Positions 8,114-58,230 of a DNA stretch of 64,000 nt are shown here, one piece after another. This DNA comes from Diphasiastrum complanatum (Eukaryota > Streptophyta > Lycopodiopsida > Lycopodiales > Lycopodiaceae), in assembly GCA_029204225.1 (NCBI GenBank), contig CM055095.1, positions 17,159,552 through 17,223,551 on the forward strand. Reading direction: 5' to 3'. Each line of letters opens with the position of its first letter. Positions within the stretch are counted from its first letter, which is position 1. Under the pieces are notes generated by a model. It worked only from the letters and a program-made list of their open reading frames with translations, was not told the origin of the DNA and did not search any database. Made by a program: the position numbers and the translations under genes.

Positions 8114-8261
8114 ATGTGTTCAGTATGGCACAACAGAGTCCTGATATTTTTTATGACCAATATATCAAATTCAAGTGAATGTAATATTTGTTATTGGAAA
8201 TGTCGTTTTCTAGAGAATCAGACCGGATTTGTGTTTTTCCTTTTGGTACAAATCCCATTAG

Positions 8262-8803
8262 AGTCAGATACTTCGATTTCGGATACTGAGATTCCTTCAT
8301 CCTCCATTACTGAACATTCCATAAAGGATATCAATCATTTCTTAAATGATACTCCTGATAAAGACACTGAATATTTGAGTGTAGATACTGATATGTTGAG
8401 GGATGCTTTCATTGGCTCTAATGCCAATAATAAAGAAAATATTGCTAGTGTACATTCTAAATGCTTTTTTGATTTGCCAAAATATTATATAAATGAAGAT
8501 GTGTATATTACAACGACAAATTTATGTGTTTTTTCCGATTATCGTGACGATGAGGTGCTTTGTCTATCGTCAAGCACCATTACTGAGTTCTCTGACATTG
8601 TTGATTTTGAAACTGAAGACTTAGTGTCGGGCATTGACTATGATGATGATGAGGGAATTCTGACTAGTGAGGAATGTTTGTCCTGGGATATGGCAAACAT
8701 TAGTGCTCATGGACGAAGTTTGCCTTCTGATGAGGAATTTATTTCATTCCAAGCCCAGCTAGGATTCCCTCGTCCATCGTGGTCACAATATAGATCATCC
8801 TAA
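8262..8803 (+). CDS. Unrecognised acidic open block, candidate host-gene exon
   Basis: A plus-strand open frame of about 180 residues with no transposon motif. It is rich in Asp, Glu and Ser (DTEIPSSS, DIVDFETEDL, IDYDDDEGILT, LPSDEEFISF) and ends PRPSWSQYRSS. The frame stays open upstream to 8114. However, a pyrimidine run (8231-8244) and an AG at 8260-8261 look like a 3' splice site, so I favour an exon starting at 8262. A GTAAGT donor-like site lies at about 8831, past the stop codon. I do not recognise the family. The strong acidic bias resembles disordered regulatory regions. It could be a real exon, a pseudogene or a chance open frame. Confidence 0.4.
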
Positions 8804-8998
8804 TCTAGTTGCAGCAAATGATGATGAATGCGTAAGTTTAAAAGTTTTACTGTGCGTTTGTTTATCTGATGTATTTATTTTGCTGAATTCAATTTGTGCT
8901 AAAAACTCCAATTTTGTAATTGGTGAATAAACTTTTTATCGATGACTTTGCTACTCGTCGAGGGGGCTTCAGACAACATTCATCATCTTTCCACAGGG

Positions 8999-9366
8999 AC
9001 AATGGCCTCAGCCACTACTTGAGGCACTTTCAAAATAATGAAATTTGCATTGCTCATTCCAAATTCACTCCAATTGGAGAGACAATGATAATGGCTGTGA
9101 AAGCCTTATCTTATTATTTAGGTGGACATAAATTTGCGAGAGCAAATAAAATAATTTTTGTGAAGAGATCTTATGTTTTAAACATACTAGGATTTGTAGA
9201 TGGAAATGTATCATTAAGGAGTTCCCATTATTCATTGTATGCAACATATATAGAATTGAGTGGTAACAAGGACAATGCACATCTTCTGGATGCATATGCA
9301 AGTAGAGAATTATTGCATGATAGCACAACAATTGGACAAGAGGATGTATCAGATACCTCTAAATGA
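8999..9366 (+). CDS. Unrecognised open block, candidate terminal exon
   Basis: A second plus-strand open frame about 200 bp after the acidic block. It is preceded by a CTTTCCACAG acceptor-like site, which would start the exon at about 8999. It encodes about 120 residues with ordinary globular composition, including HSKFTPIGETMIMAVKALS, YYLGGHKFARANKIIFV and SYVLNILGFVDGN, and ends EDVSDTSK at a stop. If joined to the upstream block it would be the 3' end of one gene. No family is recognised and no transposon motif is seen. The following sequence is AT-rich, as plant 3' UTRs often are. Confidence 0.4.
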
Positions 9367-10237
9367 TAATTTGTATATATTGAAAATTGTGAATACAATT
9401 TACATTTGTAGCAACTTTTTATCTCTGAATTTTTAACTTCTATGTTGCTCAATGAATTTGCAAGGTGGAGGAATGCTTTTTTCCCTAATTTGAATTTGTG
9501 GATGGTGGTCATATTTTCAAATTTTGACAAGTTAGACTGTGAACAATTTAGAGTTGTTAACTATGATTGTAGACACTATGGTTAGAACATTGGGAGTTGG
9601 GGAGCCCTCGGGAGTGGTGGGGGCAACCAAATAAGCAATATTGTTTTTTTTTTTTGATATTTTTCTTTATCCTACATGACATTCCTTAAAGGGTCTTTTT
9701 GATATTCAGAACTCCTCTAATGTAAGGTAGTAATTTTTTATTATAGTAAGTGAAATTTTTTTAACATTAGGTAATAAGTTTTTACTACTGGTAAAAACAT
9801 TTGTGATTTTTACCTCTGGTAAAACAATTTTTAAGAGGAACCTTACAAAGTGTAAGGTCCCTCTGATGTGTGAAGTTGCTATAGTTGTCATATTCTTCCA
9901 ATTAAGATTATCTCAAAATACATAAGAATCGTTTTATATTGCTATGTATTTCTTCCCCTGCACAAGTAAGCTTCAAATTGCTTCTATAACGAGATTGCAT
10001 ATGCCATTCCCCCATCTAATATTAGTAGTAACCATTTTTAGATCTACCTCCCATAAAAAAATAGTATACTTATATTAGACCTCAGAATATGTTGGTATTA
10101 AAAGTGTTATTAAAAGGGATATATTAACAAGTTTTGCAATGATACAAAAGATGTCTAAAATATTCAACAAGCCCATCTTTCTTTGCAATGTTGGATTAGC
10201 TCGATTGTTTCAGTTTTGTTTTGCTCTCATGTTTTTG
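9367..10237. other. AT-rich spacer with a small palindrome
   Basis: No gene is seen. Around 9838-9861 a 24-base near-palindrome (GGAACCTTAC / GTGTAAGGTCC) stands among related short GTAAGGT motifs at about 9720. It could be a trace of a small foldback element. Confidence 0.35.
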
Positions 10238-21716: not shown

Positions 21717-23730
21717 CTAACTCCTATGGATCATAGAGCTTAAAGACATTCCAAGATTAGATCTATGCTTATAATACAGGTCCTTTCCCAATGGTTTGGT
21801 AAAGATATCAGCCACACACTCCAATGAAGAGACATGTTGAAGTTCCACCTCTTTGGCAATGACTTGATCCGCCACAAAGTGATGAGCAATCTCAATGTGC
21901 TTGCTTCTAGCATGGAAATTTGGATTGGTTGCCAAGCTTTGGGCTGAAAGGTTGTCACAATAGATGATTGGTGTCTTCTTAGAATCCAGCAAGTGAAGAT
22001 CCAATAGCATCCTCTTTATCCAAGGCATCTCCTTGGTGCATGTTGTCAATGCCTTGTACTCGGCCTCGGTGGAAGATAGAGAGATAGTAGGTTGCTTCTT
22101 TGATAGCCATGAGATAGCTCCCTCTCCAAGATATATTGAAAAGGCACTTGTTGACTACCTATCCATTTGATCCCCTGCAAAATCTGAATATGAGAAACCA
22201 CAAAGGTTAGGTGAAGATCCTTCATACAAGATGCCAAAATCTCTAGAACCCGAGAGATATCTTAGTACTCTCTTTCCTAGCTTCCAATGAGCATCACTAG
22301 GATCTTGCATGAATTGACTTAGTTTACCAACCACATAGCTTAGATCAGGTCTTGTGATGGTTAACCAAATAAGAGATCCTATGAGCTTTCTAGAGAGAGT
22401 AATGTCCTTGAAGGATCTTTCATTACCTCTTATAGATAGCTTTACATTTGATTCCATGGGAGTAGAAACTACTTTGCAATTTTCCATATGAAATCTTTTT
22501 AGAATAGAGTTAGAATACTTCTCTTGACAAATAAAAGTAGAAGTAGAAGTCCTAACAATCTCTATTCCTAAGATATAGTGAAGCTTACCAAGATCTTGTG
22601 TCTCAAACTTACTTTTAAGTGCCATCTTGATGTCATCTATATCTTCATTGCCATCACCACTTAAGATTATGTCATCAACATAGATCAAAAGCAAAGTGAT
22701 GTCACCATTATCATTCAATCTAAAGTAGAGAGAATGATCATACTCACTCATGATGAAGTTTTGAGAGAGTAAGAAGGAATTGAGCTTAGCATACCAACTT
22801 CTTGGTGCTTGCTTAAGCCCATACAAGCTCTTTTGTGGAGAACACACATGATTAGGCTCATCATGTAAAACATAGCCCTCGGGTTGCTCCATGTAGATTT
22901 CCTCTTCAAGATCACCATTCAAGAAAGCATTAGTAACATCCATTTGCCACATGTCCCAACCATAAAGAGTTGCAAGAGAGATAAGGTTTCGAATTGTTAC
23001 CATCTTTGCCACGGGTGCAAAGGTCTCATCATAGTCAATGGCATACTCTTGAGCATACTCTTTGCCACCAATATTGACTTGTACCTTTTGATTAATCCAT
23101 CTTCTTTTGTCTTGATCTTGAAGATCCACTTACACCCAAATGCCTTCTTGCCTTTTGGAAGTTCCACCAACCTCCAAGTGTTGTTCTTGATGAGTGCTTG
23201 ATGCTCATAATCCATGGCTTGGATCCATTCCGCCTTTTGAATTGCTTCACCTACACAAGTTGGTTCATCAAAAGAGGTATAAAAAGCAAAGTTAGAGTTC
23301 TCCACCACTTGCTTTCCTTTTTCATCATAGGTTAGCCTTGATGGCTTAGTCCTTTGCCTTTGAGTCCTCCTTGAAGGTTGTTTTGGAGTGGCATCTCCAC
23401 CTTCATCCAAGACATCTTGCACATCATGATGATTAGTAGGCACATCAACATCATCATCAAAATTGACAACATTGGAAACATTCTCTTCATAAAAGATGAC
23501 ATCCCCGCTTATGACAACTTTATTCGTAGAAGGAATGTACACTTTGTAAGCCTTGCTTACTTCGCTATAGCCAACAAACACACCCTTCTTTGATGAAGGA
23601 TCTTCTTTAGTTCTATCATCAAGATTGATGTTAACAAAACAAGTACAACCAAAGATCCTACAATGCTTGACACTCGGCCTCCTACCATAGAGGACCTCAA
23701 AGGGAGTCTTACCATTCAAAGAAGCACTTG
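21717..23730 (-). mobile_element. Ty1/copia fossil: integrase end, RT, RNase H (family A)
   Basis: A well-preserved minus-strand copia block. Read right to left: MNGKTPFEVLYGRRPSVKHC and IFGCTCFVNIN (integrase end), linker, NNTWRLVELPKGKKAFGCKW, KEYAQEYAIDYDETFAPVAK, LLIYVDDIILSGDGNEDIDD (catalytic YVDD), TRPDLSYVVGKLSQFMQDPS, then RNase H with YCDNLSAQSLATNP and CVADIFTKPLGKD. It matches the family A pieces at 10595-12340 closely. Only a few breaks are apparent, so it is among the younger coding fossils here. Its LTRs and 5' half are absent. Confidence 0.92.
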
Positions 23731-48336: not shown

Positions 48337-49177
48337 ACTCTAGTAGATGTTTCAAATTCTTCTGTTCGTTTAAATTTGTGTTTTTTACTACTTTTTCTTT
48401 CATTTCTCCGTCTGTGAGAAATTCGAGAGGTTTCGTAATTCTCGGCAGAGGCAATGACATCTTCCAAAGAAGTCATCAAACTCTGTCGACAATAATGATC
48501 CATTTTCTCAGGCAAACCACCCAAGAACCATTCATTTTGCATAGGAACTGGATACTGGGCTCCTAACTTTCCTATTAAATTCTTAACCAACGAGTATATT
48601 TCCTAAGTGATTCCTTTGGCTTTTTTTCAACAGAGTTAAGCCGAGCCAACAATCTAGTGGAATATCCTATCTCCCTAAATTGTTTAAGGAATGCTACTTT
48701 TAAAGCATCCCAAGTATTAACTGCTTCCGGTACTAATTGATTGTACCAAATCCTAGCCTGCTTCCGCAGAAGACCTAGCAAAATTCTAACTCTATCCTCG
48801 TCCGTCTGCTCTTTGTTTGCTATGGTAATGGATTCAAATTGCGACATATAACTATTCGCATCTTCAGATGATGATTCCTTAAAGAAATCATATCTGATTT
48901 TTGTAGATGTGGGTGGCGCTGGATTAGCCATATTAATAGATGGTGGTGAACTAGATGAACTTGGAGGATCTGAATCTAAACTTCGCTCGGACAAAGTGTC
49001 TAAACTTGGTTTGGAAGTAGAATCAGACGATTTAGGTGAATCTGTAGAACTTGGTGTTTCAACGGATCTTTTCTCAAATGAATCTACGAATGTTGTAGTA
49101 GCATGTAAAAGATCATTAAACGCTTCACCTGTTAATCTTGCTCTAACTGGTGAGTTTTGCAAATTCTGCAAATACAA
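48333..49177 (-). pseudogene. gag of gypsy fossil 2
   Basis: The N-terminal part is Ser/Pro/Asp-rich. The capsid part shows RYDFFKESSSEDANSYMSQF, RVRILLGLLRKQARIWYNQL, WDALKVAFLKQFREIGYSTR and KPKESLRKYTRWL, the retrotrans_gag pattern. Broken fossil. Confidence 0.85.
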
Positions 49178-49324
49178 ATCTCAGAACTTCCTATATGCTT
49201 CTAAACGCTGTGCACGCTCTAAATATTTTTGTTCAATAATTGCTTGAGAGTATGTTCTTGGCATGCATTACATGAGAAAGATTCATACATGTAATACACT
49301 TAAAAATATTGCAAAAGGTGAAAC

Positions 49325-53021: not shown

Positions 53022-53029
53022 GACACAAG

Positions 53030-54068
53030 CTGATTGTAAGAATCTATTGTGATTTCAATAAAAAAAAAACCCATAAACGGGTTGTTGACAAGTAAAATGA
53101 TTGTATCTTTTTTTTTTATGTCTCTCTATTTACAAATAGATCGCTATTCAATCAATTTTTCTATATTTTCTATATCAATATTAGGAACTGATAAAGCAAC
53201 AGGTCCTTCTATAATCTCATCCTCCTCTGTTTTGAAAAGGGCCTCAATGCCCTATAAGTCAAGAGGAATATATGTTACAAAATTGCCTTCCTCTATATTA
53301 GGAAGGACTTTTATTCCTTTTTTAATCATATAAAGTAAGATCTGCATCTTGAACAATCTGAAAGGCTGTTAAGACAGGAGCAGCTTCCTTTTGAGGGCCC
53401 TCGATTGCAGGTGCAACGCTTACCTTGTAATGGGCAAAGGTTTTGATCAACTCTTGCTGAAATCTATATACATCATGAGGAGTATACGGCTCAAGAGTAA
53501 ACTGTCATCACAAAACACAAGAATCAGCAAATTACAAACAATGATGGTAATAAAATATGAATCAGAATGAAATGAACTACAAATGACTAGAATATTACCT
53601 TTTCAATATCTACATCTGCTTGTAAATTATACCATTCAAAAAATAGCTTCGTATTGTACATGACGAATCATGCCCAACTAAAAGCGTCATTTTGTTGTAC
53701 ACACTGCATATATAGATCGAAAATTAGTAATATTATGATAGAAATTTTATTTATGCTATGACGATACATTTGAATTAAAAAAGAAATACATGCATATTAG
53801 AGATAAATTGAATATACCTTGAGAGATTTAATGGTTATATCTCCAATTAAAGTTGTCGTTGTCGGTATTTCCCGAACGACATCATGAATACCGACAATCT
53901 CAATTGGAGATATAATCATTAAATACAGATAATTTTATCATAAATACAACTTCATCATGAATACATATCGTTAAATTCATATTTATGATTAAATTCCGTT
54001 CTTATTAAAGCAATGAGTCATGCAACAATCCAGATTAAAGCAACAAAAACAAAAGAGCAATCCTTACT
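53030..54068 (-). pseudogene. Decayed downstream exons of the H3-like locus
   Basis: Beyond the H3-like frame the same strand carries protein-like blocks with plant-type splice borders. 54068-54606 reads IIRPAPQHVSLPKVLITQEE, VHNVFVRIPYDQTQVFFYSD and GAVKAKEANFEKAIYFIECS, ending at a GTAAGG donor (GT at 54066-54067). 53818-53926 reads IISPIEIVGIHDVVREIPTT with a donor at 53816-53817. 53599-53703 reads FFEWYNLQADVDIEK between an AG (53704-53705) and a GT (53597-53598). 53300-53501 reads FTLEPYTPHDVYRFQQELIK. The introns between the last three blocks are about 112 and 95 bp. Several interruptions show the locus is decayed. No family is recognised for this part. Confidence 0.5.
53827..53923. repeat. 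Foldback (inverted repeat) of about 97 bp
   Basis: TTTAATGGTTATATCTCCAA at 53827 pairs with the complement of TTGGAGATATAATCATTAAA ending at 53923. A second paired segment, TTGTCGGTATT with AATACCGACAA, lies inside. The arms are about 40 bp with small bulges. It coincides with one of the exon-like blocks of the H3-like locus. Confidence 0.75.
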
Positions 54069-54606
54069 TATTTTCATATGGAATCAAATAAAATTTTGTC
54101 ATAGGACTACACTCGATAAAATAGATAGCCTTCTCAAAATTGGCTTCTTTCGCCTTTACCGCTCCCATGAAAAATGGACTAACTACAAAAATTGTACCAT
54201 GGAAATCGAAACTAATACTATTCTACAAAAAAAAAACTCCATCCTCTACTATTGCATCTGAAATTTCTGAGGTCTTATCTTTTAGCTCGGCACAAAATTT
54301 GGGACCTAATCTAATGCTTCTACGTGTATTTGGAAGAAAAAAATCAAAAAAGTTGTCGAGAAGATCAATTTTGTTAGCTAGCTAGGCCTCGTATTGATTA
54401 TAATGGTCAGAATAAAAAAAAACCTGGGTTTGATCATATGGAATTCTCACAAAAACATTATGTACAGGAGCAGAAACAGAAGAGGAAAGAATATTTACAG
54501 ATTTATCTATTTTTCTATCTAGCTCCTCTTGGGTTATCAACACTTTTGGTAATGAAACATGCTGAGGAGCTGGACGAATAATAGGAGGAGGACTGGGTGA
54601 AGATTC

Positions 54607-55191
54607 TCAATCTGAGTCAGATTCTCCAGCATCTGACTCAGAGCTCAAAAAGACACGGGGTCTCTTGGCCGGGATACGTCTAGGAGGAAGGGAAGCATCT
54701 GGCCTTCGAGATCCAGCCTTCTTGGGGACAGCCTGCTTTCTCTTCCTCCTAGAGGTAGTAGGCAAGTTGGTTCTATCCAGAGGTAGGTCTCTGGAGGTGC
54801 TGGCATTATCAACATGCAGACCAGAATATCTATCCCGAAGCCTTTTGAGAATGACGAAATCCTTTGGCATGATGGTGACACGCTTATCATGCACTGCCAA
54901 AAGACAAGTATCCTCAAGAAACTGGGACAAAAAATCTTCTACAGCACTCTGCAAGGTCTGCATGGCTGTCACAACAAAATGAACATCTAGCCCAAGTGAT
55001 AGAGTGACATTCCATATAGATCGGCCGAAAGGAACTCCAGGGATCAACAATTCAATTGATCTCTGGAGTTTTCTGATCTCCCTCATCCAGACCTGCTTTC
55101 TGCCACGCCTATGGCCAGTACCAGGGGGAACACGTGAATGGGATGGTTGTACAGTGGTGATGGCACGGGCGGTGGATTTGGTCTTGGCCAT
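54607..55191 (-). CDS. Divergent histone H3-fold protein with C-terminal extension
   Basis: A minus-strand frame of about 194 residues from the second of two adjacent ATGs (55191). That start gives MAKTKSTARA, close to the MARTKQTARK start of H3. Residues 37-122 align without gaps to the core of canonical H3: REIRKLQRSIELLI (alpha-N), PFGRS (alpha-1 start), TLQSAVEDFLSQFLEDT (alpha-2), LLAVHDKRVTIMPKD (loop 2 and alpha-3 start), KRLRDRY. By my eye alignment 39 of 86 positions are identical. The tail is about 35 residues long. The K4 position is kept, the K9 position is Ala, and there is no K27-like motif. IELLIPGVPF resembles the LLIP-x-x-PF of plant CENH3, but loop 1 has canonical length and TIMPKD is canonical. 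After the fold comes a basic extension (TSRRKRKQAVPKKAGSRR, PAKRPRV), likely a nuclear localisation signal, and an acidic serine end (SSESDAGESDSD). It could be a diverged host H3 variant, a captured histone or a recent pseudogene. Confidence 0.85.
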   Translation of the reverse strand: MAKTKSTARAITTVQPSHSRVPPGTGHRRGRKQVWMREIRKLQRSIELLIPGVPFGRSIWNVTLSLGLDVHFVVTAMQTLQSAVEDFLSQFLEDTCLLAVHDKRVTIMPKDFVILKRLRDRYSGLHVDNASTSRDLPLDRTNLPTTSRRKRKQAVPKKAGSRRPDASLPPRRIPAKRPRVFLSSESDAGESDSD

Positions 55192-55502
55192 CATTCTCGG
55201 AAGAAAAAAATTAACAAAAAGAAATTTGAACAAAAGAAAAGTGGATCAAAACAAAAAAATTTGCAATGAAAGGGCGCTTGAGAATGATACTAGCACTGAA
55301 TATCGGTTTCGAACGCAAGATCTACAGAGATTATTTGCAGAAAAGAGATGCACGTTCGAAAGCAATATTGCACAACAGGCGGTATCAGACTCGAGCGCAC
55401 TATGAGAGTGCGGAAGCTTGAAAGATGAAAGAGCAAGTTTGAGAGCGATATCAGGAGCTAAAAGCAAAAATTTCGCGAAAAAAAATGAAAATTCCGAGGA
55501 CT
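55192..55502 (-). promoter_or_regulatory. Leader of the H3-like locus
   Basis: About 300 bp between a TATA-like box (CATATATG, 55505-55512) and the ATG on the minus strand. Its last part is T-rich (TTGTTAATTTTTTTCTTCC). The middle resembles, in reverse complement, the sequence right of the plus-facing TATA box at 56440-56640 (GCTCGAG/GGATCCGATACTCC and TTCGAACGTGCATC/TCGAACGCACGTTGCC), so both flanks of the G-box core share a leader type. Confidence 0.55.
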
Positions 55503-55785
55503 TACATATATGAAATTTTTCCACGTGTGAAAAGATGGCCGAGACATGTGTCGTCAGATGATCAGACCACGTGGAATGTCCGTACTGAAAATGATGAGCC
55601 AATTATGAGGCCACGTGGGCTGAGACACGAGCGTGAATCCCTAATCGACACGTGTTACTCTTGCACGTGACAGATGTCAGATCAATCATACTAGTCACAG
55701 CACATTTTATTTGGCTAATCACAAGTCGACATGTGTTCCTTCACCACTCCTCCACACGTGCAAATTTTTTTTTATACATATGTCT
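55503..55785. promoter_or_regulatory. G-box-rich, apparently bidirectional promoter
   Basis: Six CACGTG G-boxes lie at 55522, 55568, 55612, 55649, 55664 and 55755, with additional ACATGT variants. On the left a CATATATG box faces the H3-like frame. On the right a TTTATACATA box (55771-55780) faces rightward. The outer parts are roughly mirror images (TTCCACGTGTG on the left, CACACGTGCAAA on the right). CACGTG is the core bound by plant bZIP and bHLH factors such as ABA- and light-response regulators. This suggests stress-, hormone- or light-linked expression, though nothing here proves activity. Confidence 0.65.
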
Positions 55786-56045
55786 TTTTGGGCTCAGATT
55801 TTCACGCAAATTCACGATTGCTTTGCCGTATACAATTTCAAGCGCACCGCTTGCTCTCATTACATCTCGTTGGCTATTATGCACCTGGATCCGATACTGC
55901 ATCGTCCGGTATCGCATTCGAACGCGTCTTGCAACCCTTTTTTTTTTGCTCGTTGTTCTTGCGCTCAGATCCGATACTCCAGTTTCAAATATGTCTCTTG
56001 AGTGCATGTTGATTTGACGTGCTTGTCGGACTTGGGGTTTGTGCC
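55515..56045 (+). repeat. Promoter repeat, copy 1
   Basis: About 530 bp including the G-box core, a TATA-like box and the following leader. It matches 56141-56650 in direct orientation. Shared blocks include GTCGTCAGATGAT, ACGCAAATT-ACGATTGCTTTGCCG, GGATCCGATACTGCATC and TTGTTCTTGCGCTC. Confidence 0.85.
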
Positions 56046-56140
56046 TGAGAGCGATAATTGAAACTTCAGTTCTGTTATTTTTGTTTAAAATGTCTAATTT
56101 TGAATCCAGTTTGCTGTATTTTTTTGATGAATTTGTGCAA
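56046..56140 (+). other. Short plus-strand frame facing away from the H3-like frame
   Basis: After the plus-facing leader an ATG at 56090 opens MSNFESSLLYFFDEFVQIF before entering the second promoter repeat. This is where the partner of a bidirectional promoter would begin. The frame is cut short by the repeat, and nothing is recognised. Confidence 0.3.
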
Positions 56141-56650
56141 ATTTTTGCACATGTGAAAAGACGGCTGAGACACGTGTCGTCAGATGATTAGACCACATGG
56201 AATGTCCATACTAATAATGATGACCCAATTATGGAGACACGTGGGCTGAGACACGTGCGCGAATCCCTTTTTGACGCGTGTCATTCTTGCACGTGACAGA
56301 TTTCAGATTAATCATTCTAGATACGACACATTTATTTTGGCCAATCACATGTCGACACGTGCTCCTTCGCCACTCCACACGTGCAAAATTTTTATATATA
56401 AATAGGTCTTTTTCGACTTGAATTTTCACGCAAATTTACGATTGCTTTGCCGGATATCGGTTTCAAGCGCGCCGCTTGCTCTCATTACGTCTCATTGACT
56501 ATTATGCGTCTGGATCCGATACTGCATCCTCTGGTATTGCATTCAAGCGTGTTTCATATCCCTTTTCTTTTCTGCTCGTTGTTCTTGCGCTCGGATCCGA
56601 TACTCCAGCTTCCAATATCTCTCTCGAACGCACGTTGCCTTGACGTGCGG
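56141..56650 (+). repeat. Promoter repeat, copy 2
   Basis: Second copy with six CACGTG boxes (56171, 56238, 56252, 56290, 56356, 56378) and a clean TATATATAAATAG box at 56394-56406. It ends where the copia H protease region begins, so its right edge coincides with a junction inside that element. Confidence 0.85.
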
Positions 56651-56651
56651 G

Positions 56652-58230
56652 AATAGTACCATTTTCCTTGATAACAACTTTACCATCATTGGCCATGTTG
56701 ATGATTTTCTTCTCTCCTTCATAAGGCACCAAATAAGTGAAGTACTCTTTGTGACATGTCATATGAAAGCTTGATCCACTATCAATCCACCATGGATCAA
56801 TATCTCCATCATTGGTTAGCAAACAAGAAGACATCAAAAAGGCATCATCATTTGAGTTTTTATTACCAATACCATCCTCATCAAAAGTGAAATTGCTTTG
56901 CTTCTCATTTTGATCTCTCTTTTTCCTGAAGAAATCACTTGAAAAATGCCCTTTGACTCCACAATAAAAGCATTTTAACTTGGATCTGTCTTTCTTCTTT
57001 CCAACAAAAGTAGAAGGCTCACCTTGATCTTGACCCTTTGACCACTTGCCTTTGCCTTTGCCCTTGAACTTTCCCTTTCAAAACATAGCCTCCTCCTCTC
57101 CAACTTGAGAAATAGCAGTAGATACTCCTCTTGATAGAAGCCTAAACTCCTCATTCACCAAGATCTCTTGCAAATCCACCATACTTGGAAAAGTCTTTTG
57201 AATAGCAAAATTTTGCACCAAATTAGCATGATCATCCAACAAGCCACTAAGAACAACTTGAACAAGCTCCACTTTAATGCTTTCACTAATGCATGCTAGT
57301 TCATCTCTCAAAGCTTTAACTCTCAAAACAAAAGCATGATAGCCTTTGTACTCCTTCTTTTAGGATTAGGACCCTAGATGTAGACTTGGACTCATAAACT
57401 TCTTCAAAGATTCCCAAGCCTCACTTGATGTTGTGAACTTACCAACTTCCTTGAGAAGTTCATTAGTCACATTCATCTAGATCACATTTAAAGCTTTCTT
57501 TGCCCTCTTGTAATACCTCAATTGATCTTGTGGTGCCAAAAATCTCTCCTCCACACCTACAACAATATCCATCAAATCATTCATCTCAAGCAAAGATTCA
57601 ATCCTCACCACCTTCCAAATAGAATAGTTTGTTGAGGTAAGCCTATCATTTCTTCCAACACAAAGCCACTTGAGGTTGCCATGTTGCAATGATCTAATCT
57701 TCTATTTGAACCTATTCCAATGCACCAAGATCTTTCTTGAGAATCAACAAATGAAACTCAAGAAGAAATCACAAAGATATGAAAACAATCTAGCCTCTCC
57801 GTTTTCTCTTTCTAGCAAATCCTAGCATGTAGAATCTTAATTTCTTGATCACAATAGATCTAAGCACAATATGATGAACTTTTGCCAACACCTACTCTTG
57901 GAAAGGTCTAGAAACTTAAAATCAAGAGATCCTATCAAATTTAGGGTCTCACAAAAAATGCAAAACATTGAATCAATCAAAATCTACATGCAAAAGCTAG
58001 AATCTACATATCTCATCTAATAGAATGTAGCATCCACAATCACAAGCAATTTTTGTCTCCCCATTCCAGTAAGTGGTTTCAAAAATTGACCATCTACAAG
58101 TATTTTGACCTAAAATAATTTTAAGATTGCAAAGATCCAAACTCTATATTTAAAACTACAAGATTTGAGCTGAAAATTCTTCCAAATCCATAGAGAATTT
58201 ATGGCGCCCTCAAATCTACCTTTGATACCA
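56652..58230 (-). mobile_element. Ty1/copia fossil H: protease start, zinc knuckle, gag, leader, primer site
   Basis: Read right to left: primer site TGGTATCAAAGG (58219-58230), leader of about 530 bp, gag (57078-57689) with GRNDRLTSTNYSIWKVVRIE, SLLEMNDLMDIVVGVEERF and SGLLDDHANLVQNFAIQKTF, then a basic patch and knuckle region (about 56930-57060). The protease start is DPWWIDSGSSFHMTCHKEYF, then KVVIKENGTIP. It stops at 56651 against the promoter repeat. It is a close relative of copia B and D, with several interruptions. Confidence 0.9.

Follow-up and report, generated by a model that had tools for sequence, protein, structure and literature searches.

Histone H3 genes carried by transposable elements are already known from fungi, and the bare fact of an H3 gene inside a transposon is therefore not new. 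In Pseudocercospora fijiensis and five relatives, inactivated H3 copies number in the hundreds and lie within hAT elements of about 9.5 kb, and Pyrenophora tritici-repentis has 26 hAT-captured H3 copies, 23 of which are apparently functional (PMC6710886). The same text gives 8-bp target duplications and a DUF659 transposase domain for the fungal elements, with copies that are mostly truncated and RIP-inactivated (PMC6710886). Culex Helentrons carry fragments of H4 and H1/H15 genes; in the accessible text, these are broken fragments in eight copies of a rolling-circle element (PMC4067079). VANC anti-silencing proteins, encoded by the VANDAL transposons of Arabidopsis, act on tandem repeats that lie in noncoding sequence of the element encoding them, and the accessible part of that paper does not describe VANC as a histone (PMC10398659).

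The locus of Diphasiastrum complanatum described here can be compared with each of these systems. Like the fungal hAT elements, as far as these are described, the plant element has terminal inverted repeats and a similar size, and carries an amplified H3 that is far from the host H3 (PMC6710886). It shares with the Culex Helentrons the presence of histone gene pieces inside a transposon, although the histones concerned are others (PMC4067079), and with VANC a protein encoded by a DNA transposon that has tandem repeats in its noncoding part (PMC10398659). Unlike the fungal hAT elements, however, the plant element has no target duplication (4/4 copies) and no recognised transposase domain, and it combines an H3 part under selection with an added C-terminal domain and with several divergent families. 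Fungal KDZ transposons, which carry TET/JBP genes, are likewise DNA transposons with a chromatin gene, theirs encoding a DNA-modifying enzyme and not a core histone; no match to KDZ was found among the Pfam results for the tested element frames. A full-text search of openly licensed papers did not reveal a plant transposon-borne H3, nor one that is selected, lacks K9, has two domains and forms several families, and the word histone is absent from the accessible text of a 2026 review on gene capture in plants. The new aspects of the present case are that the H3 part was under selection, that a domain was added and that several divergent families exist.

The window analyzed is a stretch of 64,000 nucleotides, in which the initial annotation had singled out a 194-residue frame aligning without gaps to the H3 core, with 39 of 86 residues identical. 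Against Arabidopsis H3.1 this count is exact, and the core of the H3.1 reference is consistent with the PDB alignment lines. The profile search that the annotation had proposed matched Pfam PF00125 (Histone) over residues 4–115 of the frame (2.3e-21; 76.7 bits, cut-off 26.4). The match covers the whole fold, and neither of the outcomes that the annotation had named as speaking against it, a background-level score or a match confined to a single short motif, was found. In a PDB sequence search, the top match of the window frame was an H3 (69.6 bits). A profile of 17 copies, namely those of the 30 fetched copies that are open over residues 1–194, had Arabidopsis H3.1 as its top match (89 bits), with an alignment running from residue 1 through the core. 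The protein of the family to which the window copy belongs (family A) aligns with plant H3.1/H3.3 over residues 1–119 and shares with plant H3 the histone fold, the ARTK-TAR start and the KRVTIMPKD motif. Of 88 core positions, 48 have the H3.1 residue as the majority residue of the 17 copies, compared with 40 in the window copy, which has thus diverged further than the family as a whole. Residues H113, R116, T118, D123 and R129, which we take to be important for the H3-H3' interface and for DNA contact, are unaltered in the window copy.

Structure prediction yielded weak models, with a mean pLDDT of 38.5 for the window ORF with 17 close copies and of 51.5 with 15 diverse sequences. The latter model predicts, at low confidence, helices at residues 28–47, 55–66, 70–103 and 109–123, presumably the layout expected for H3; the top Foldseek match was a chain of a nucleosome entry (E = 0.21), which is too weak to count. 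On sequence grounds, the 194-residue frame is confirmed as a true H3 homologue. The initial annotation had not stated its strand.

A search of the genome (1.74 Gb) with the window protein returned matches spread over the chromosomes, all 150 of the 150 scored having 79–100% identity; these 150 were scored out of 7548 first-look candidates, a figure that is not a copy count. Many of the 150 scored matches contain an in-frame TAG or TGA. Canonical host H3 genes are found at separate loci (13 rows, 97–99% identity). Canonical host H3 is characterized by more than 90% identity to H3.1/H3.3 and a length of about 135 residues, neither of which is seen in the window gene. Both host H3 genes that were read (2 of the 13 rows) have Tyr41; according to the accessible part of one report, Phe41 of H3 is first seen in ferns (PMC5809374). 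The C2 copy (L031/L032) and the window share about 12 kb at 99.4–99.7% identity, flanks included, and judging from this similarity they seem to stem from a recent segmental duplication; about 5.9 kb is inserted downstream of the H3 gene at the C2 locus.

The carrier was mapped by comparing the 20-kb context of eight copies, among which C8a is a near-duplicate of C8b, and C2 of the window. The same element sequence flanks the gene in all eight enlarged contexts (two pairs include near-duplicates), and similarity between copies extends well past the ORF, ending at common points. The 5' end of the element is CATTAGAGAAAATATGGGCCC and its 3' end, read inward, is CATTAGAGAAACTTAGAGCCC. The termini are inverted (CATTAGAGAAA...), with 6 mismatches between the two 30-base ends. 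Probes for the two ends each gave 40 matches out of 40 scored, at 95–100% and 94–100% identity, respectively (1540 and 1862 first-look candidates, mostly unscored). The element length of about 10 kb is a composite, no single fetched copy being complete: the most distant 5' end (C10) lies about 5.6 kb upstream of the ATG, and the most distant 3' end (C4b) lies about 4.2 kb downstream. C8b is the one context with both ends and spans 8.4 kb. By eye, a copia reading frame in the flanks of C8b runs on across the insertion with no added bases. In the four copies that could be read at both ends, three of which had their ends paired by position and strand, no target-site duplication of at least 3 bases was found; one of them has TA/TA.

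With regard to class, inverted repeats at the ends of dispersed copies, as in a TIR DNA transposon, are present, whereas a target duplication and a recognizable transposase are absent: no convincing Pfam match was obtained for the 13 frames tested, and no PDB match for the one frame searched. Several known classes were considered and rejected. An LTR retrotransposon gene is contradicted by the lack of an LTR pair in the C6 context and by ends that are inverted rather than direct; apart from the tandem units, the C6 context has no direct repeat of at least 150 bp, and the C8a context has one 0.4-kb direct pair, located outside the element. A Helitron does not fit, as the bases flanking the element are not fixed. 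The end sequence hinted at CACTA, but there is neither a 3-bp duplication nor a transposase domain, and hAT was discarded given the absence of an 8-bp duplication in 4/4 copies and of a hAT domain in the tested frames. As for a viral origin, 50 stretches were matched in an IMG/VR pattern search and none was confirmed. Rfam and tRNA scans gave no match. The 5' half of the element (L041 3827-7000, L045, L035) contains frames with the motifs NSKHPCLYC and SIWSSQGMEKSHWQAR, for which no convincing Pfam or PDB relative was found; from their sequence, these upstream frames are a candidate for an undescribed transposase.

Taken together, we consider it very probable that the window ORF is an element-borne H3 gene. 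The second option in the initial annotation, a histone captured and reshaped in a repeat-rich locus, holds in spirit, with the qualification that the gene is carried by a family of elements of about 10 kb and not by the nearby retrotransposon pieces. The features of the window that belong to this element are listed below.

Table. Positions in the window of the H3-like gene, its parts and the associated element remains.
Feature	Position	Strand	Remarks
H3-like ORF, 194 residues plus stop	54607..55191	-	ATG at 55191, stop at 54607-54609; family A; very probably the decayed and truncated remnant of an H3 gene borne by an element
N-terminal tail, residues 1-31	55099..55191	-	K4 kept, position 9 not Lys, K27/K36 region lacking
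H3 histone-fold core, residues 32-122	54826..55098	-	
Basic C-terminal extension, residues 123-194	54610..54825	-	First part common to family C
Continuation of the frame, broken by stops (codons 195, 270, 323)	54064..54609	-	In other copies, remainder of the linker and C-terminal domain
H3-bearing element fragment, both ends missing	53022..56648	-	Identity with the C6 copy (L045/L046): 89.8%, 93.1% and 91.5%
Tandem unit nearest the gene, CACGTG-rich	55513..56022	.	Start-to-start spacing about 625 bp
Second tandem unit	56139..56648	.	Identity about 85%; the element fragment abuts a copia fragment at the outer end of this unit
Second, divergent related element fragment	8114..9722	-	End-like sequence CATTAGAGGAG... 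at 9722

The initial annotation had described the 194-residue frame as intact and its long C-terminal extension as not known from any plant H3 family. The length is correct, but the frame is not intact, since codon 195 is a stop in 6 of the 30 fetched copies, the window copy included, and a sense codon in the other 24. The extension is real, but it represents just the beginning of a longer protein, which has about 370 residues and a second domain. In the window, the frame runs on through its further in-frame stops to a final stop at codon 376. Two of the 30 copies, near-identical to one another, are open for 369 codons; many copies are frameshifted ahead of the C-terminal domain. In the full protein, a basic linker joins the H3 domain to a C-terminal domain for which no Pfam match was found; relative to plant H3, there are about 250 additional C-terminal residues.

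Compared with plant H3.1/H3.3, family A, element-borne and of high copy number, has a shortened tail without K9, K27 and K36, the region of K27 and K36 being missing altogether. The tail starts with AKTKSTARAIT in the window copy and with ARTKSTARAIT in the majority form of the 17 copies. Lys occupies position 4 in 27 of the 30 copies and is missing there in three; at position 9, 26 copies have Ala, three have Val and a single one has Lys. This sole copy with Lys at the place of K9 is the C10 copy (L006; ARTKSTTRKIT), where the Lys could represent either an older state or a chance change.

Searching with H3.1 led to a further family (family C), whose protein of 334 residues follows the same plan of an H3 part and a C-terminal part. 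Families A and C are 52% identical over 140 amino acids, comprising the H3 part and the start of the linker, and 22–25% identical in the C-terminal part (E = 3e-9 in a two-sequence comparison). Family C is of high copy number as well (150/150 scored matches at 76–100%), and both of its copies that were read have Asp at the place of position 9. Family D has ARPKS at the tail start in one decayed copy; an 80-residue query gave 150 scored matches, 84 at 79–100% and 66 at 63–70%. In a tree of about 90 columns, families A, C and D are separated with a support of 90 from two CENH3s, from family B and from host H3, families A and C are joined with a support of 80, and family A alone has a support of 97. 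Given its length, this tree provides a lead rather than proof. Family B accounts for eight of the 11 diverged H3-like loci fetched (L077–L081, L083, L084 and L086), shows the repeated sequence RRKRRIAKWLQDIRSYQKSVKFLIPRAPFVRLVKEI... and lacks both an ARTK tail and a C-terminal part; it branches apart from A/C/D. A ninth locus, L089, is a distant relative of the family B type and could be near a host gene.

The two tandem units upstream of the gene lie in a region, 55400–56700, that holds 12 of the window's 24 CACGTG sites. Averaged over the 30 copies, CACGTG occurs 7.5 times in the 1.5 kb upstream of the gene and 0.07 times in the 1.5 kb downstream, compared with 0.29–0.38 when three of the upstream regions are shuffled. 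The upstream count is 0 or 1 in three of the 30 copies.

From these sequence features, an element-made H3 that enters chromatin and yet could not be marked at K9 or K27 would be the most economical reading. The predicted protein of the element is an H3 that begins with an almost normal ARTK, has a short tail and a complete fold, and is connected by a basic linker to the C-terminal domain. Its H3 part would pair with H4, and the linker or the C-terminal domain would bring the protein to the element's own DNA, possibly to the CACGTG-rich tandem repeats. The resulting nucleosomes could carry K4 marks and would lack K9 and K27, for which reason silencing would fail at the element: H3K9/K27 methylation and the linked non-CG DNA methylation would not be established there, and the element would stay expressed long enough to move. 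As a whole, the explanation of the window gene as a decayed copy of the two-domain H3 gene of an element of about 10 kb, serving to form anti-silencing nucleosomes free of K9 and K27, comes near to an even chance without quite reaching it. The anti-silencing mechanism itself is tentative and, taken separately, somewhat unlikely, as its probability is lowered by the fungal precedent, in which the captured H3 seems to be a passenger. Rather unlikely, too, is the broadest form of the proposal, a group of plant DNA transposons of at least three families (A, C and D) with their own selected H3 and a second domain, which would wrap their own DNA in chromatin that is proof against K9/K27 marking and capable of K4 marking.

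Were unsilenceable chromatin indeed made from an element-encoded H3, this would be a new route for selfish DNA to evade its host, in which the element replaces the substrate of silencing rather than attacking its enzymes, and the H3 would be a working part, unlike the fungal passengers. It would also be a natural experiment on the H3 residues required by heterochromatin. More generally, H3-like genes in repeat-rich plant genomes are not necessarily host histone variants.

Whether the H3 part works for the element bears directly on a passenger capture, or transduplication, in which a host H3 is multiplied by a transposon without benefit to the element. The fungal hAT elements are a precedent, their H3 copies looking like passengers in the accessible part of that report (PMC6710886). 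In family A, parsimony counts on a tree of 31 copies gave, for the terminal branches of the H3 domain, 154 nonsynonymous, 74 synonymous and 10 stop changes (expected 157.1, 68.9 and 12.0), as a passenger would show. On the internal branches, however, 86 nonsynonymous, 75 synonymous and four stop changes stand against an expected 109.8, 47.6 and 7.6, and the difference between internal and terminal branches has a Fisher p of 0.0059, which is indicative, 30 of the copies being the best-scoring of 150. An earlier run on 29 copies over 194 codons, with L018 excluded for its length, gave a similar pattern. Pairwise dN/dS is 0.50 over 27 of the 30 copies (three of other length were left out) and falls to 0.20–0.28 in all eight comparisons with the divergent subfamily copy in L043. 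The linker shows a weaker signal than the H3 domain (p = 0.1). No selection was detected on the C-terminal domain on the internal branches of family A (150 nonsynonymous and 52 synonymous changes against 149.5 and 54.4 expected, p = 0.81), again in favor of a passenger, and a single pair of family C copies had no excess of silent changes (34 nonsynonymous, 15 synonymous). These substitution counts are indicative of past purifying selection on the H3 part along the internal branches, followed by neutral decay along the terminal ones. This, together with a second high-copy family that has the same layout at just 52% identity in the H3 part, argues against a passenger, which we consider unlikely.

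A second explanation, also doubtful, is that the protein serves transposition as a targeting or assembly factor. It might, for instance, become part of host nucleosomes and in this way direct integration, or it might pack the DNA of the element. The fusion of an H3 fold to a C-terminal domain would suit such a role, as would the unaltered state of H113, R116, D123 and R129 among the presumed interface and DNA-contact residues. A parallel exists in viruses whose captured histones package their own genomes, as described in the accessible part of one paper (PMC8015243). On the other hand, visual inspection of the sequence flanking 18 ends (17 of them 5' and one 3', with several duplicates among them) revealed no insertion preference, and the loss of K9 and K27 would have no obvious reason.

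Descent from a host centromeric H3, with the protein still marking or exploiting centromeric chromatin, is improbable, more so than either of these two. Family A does resemble plant CENH3 in its divergent H3 core and in an LLIP..APF-type motif, a pattern like that of the two compared CENH3s. Moreover, all element-type sequences covering the place of A47 have W there, and P at 63 and A at 65 are each found in 10 of 12 sequences. In contrast to the compared CENH3s, loop 1 lacks a two-residue insertion, with no extra residue in families A, B and D and one in family C, and unlike plant CENH3, family A has a long C-terminal part and is dispersed within an element. Core identity of family A is 43–51% to host H3 and 38–47% to the two CENH3s, and among the 60 of 173 PDB matches listed for the 17-copy profile there is no CENP-A on its own, only two H3.1/CENP-A chimeras. 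Finally, a diverged host H3 variant gene lying among repeats, the other option of the initial annotation, retains next to no probability and is ruled out for the window copy: although its H3 tail and fold are encoded in one ORF, it is repeated at 150/150 scored places, shares its element flanks in 8/8 contexts and is interrupted by in-frame stops, and the canonical H3 genes are located elsewhere.

Some further remains were observed in the window. In the divergent element fragment at its left side, two frames on the plus strand have homologues (34%, 2e-24; 51%, 1e-31) among the minus-strand frames that the H3-bearing element contains between its upstream ORF and the H3 gene. Within the fragment that carries the H3-like gene, 53889–53964 is unmatched in the C6 copy. 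A small inverted repeat (ATCTCCAATT...AATTGGAGAT) at 53820–53935, next to a stretch that is variable between copies, looks like a short nested insert. Unrelated retrotransposon pieces, comprising an integrase core, a copia-type reverse transcriptase, gag and a polyprotein fragment, are found at 2246–2869, 22155–23129, 48575–49180 and 56502–57077.
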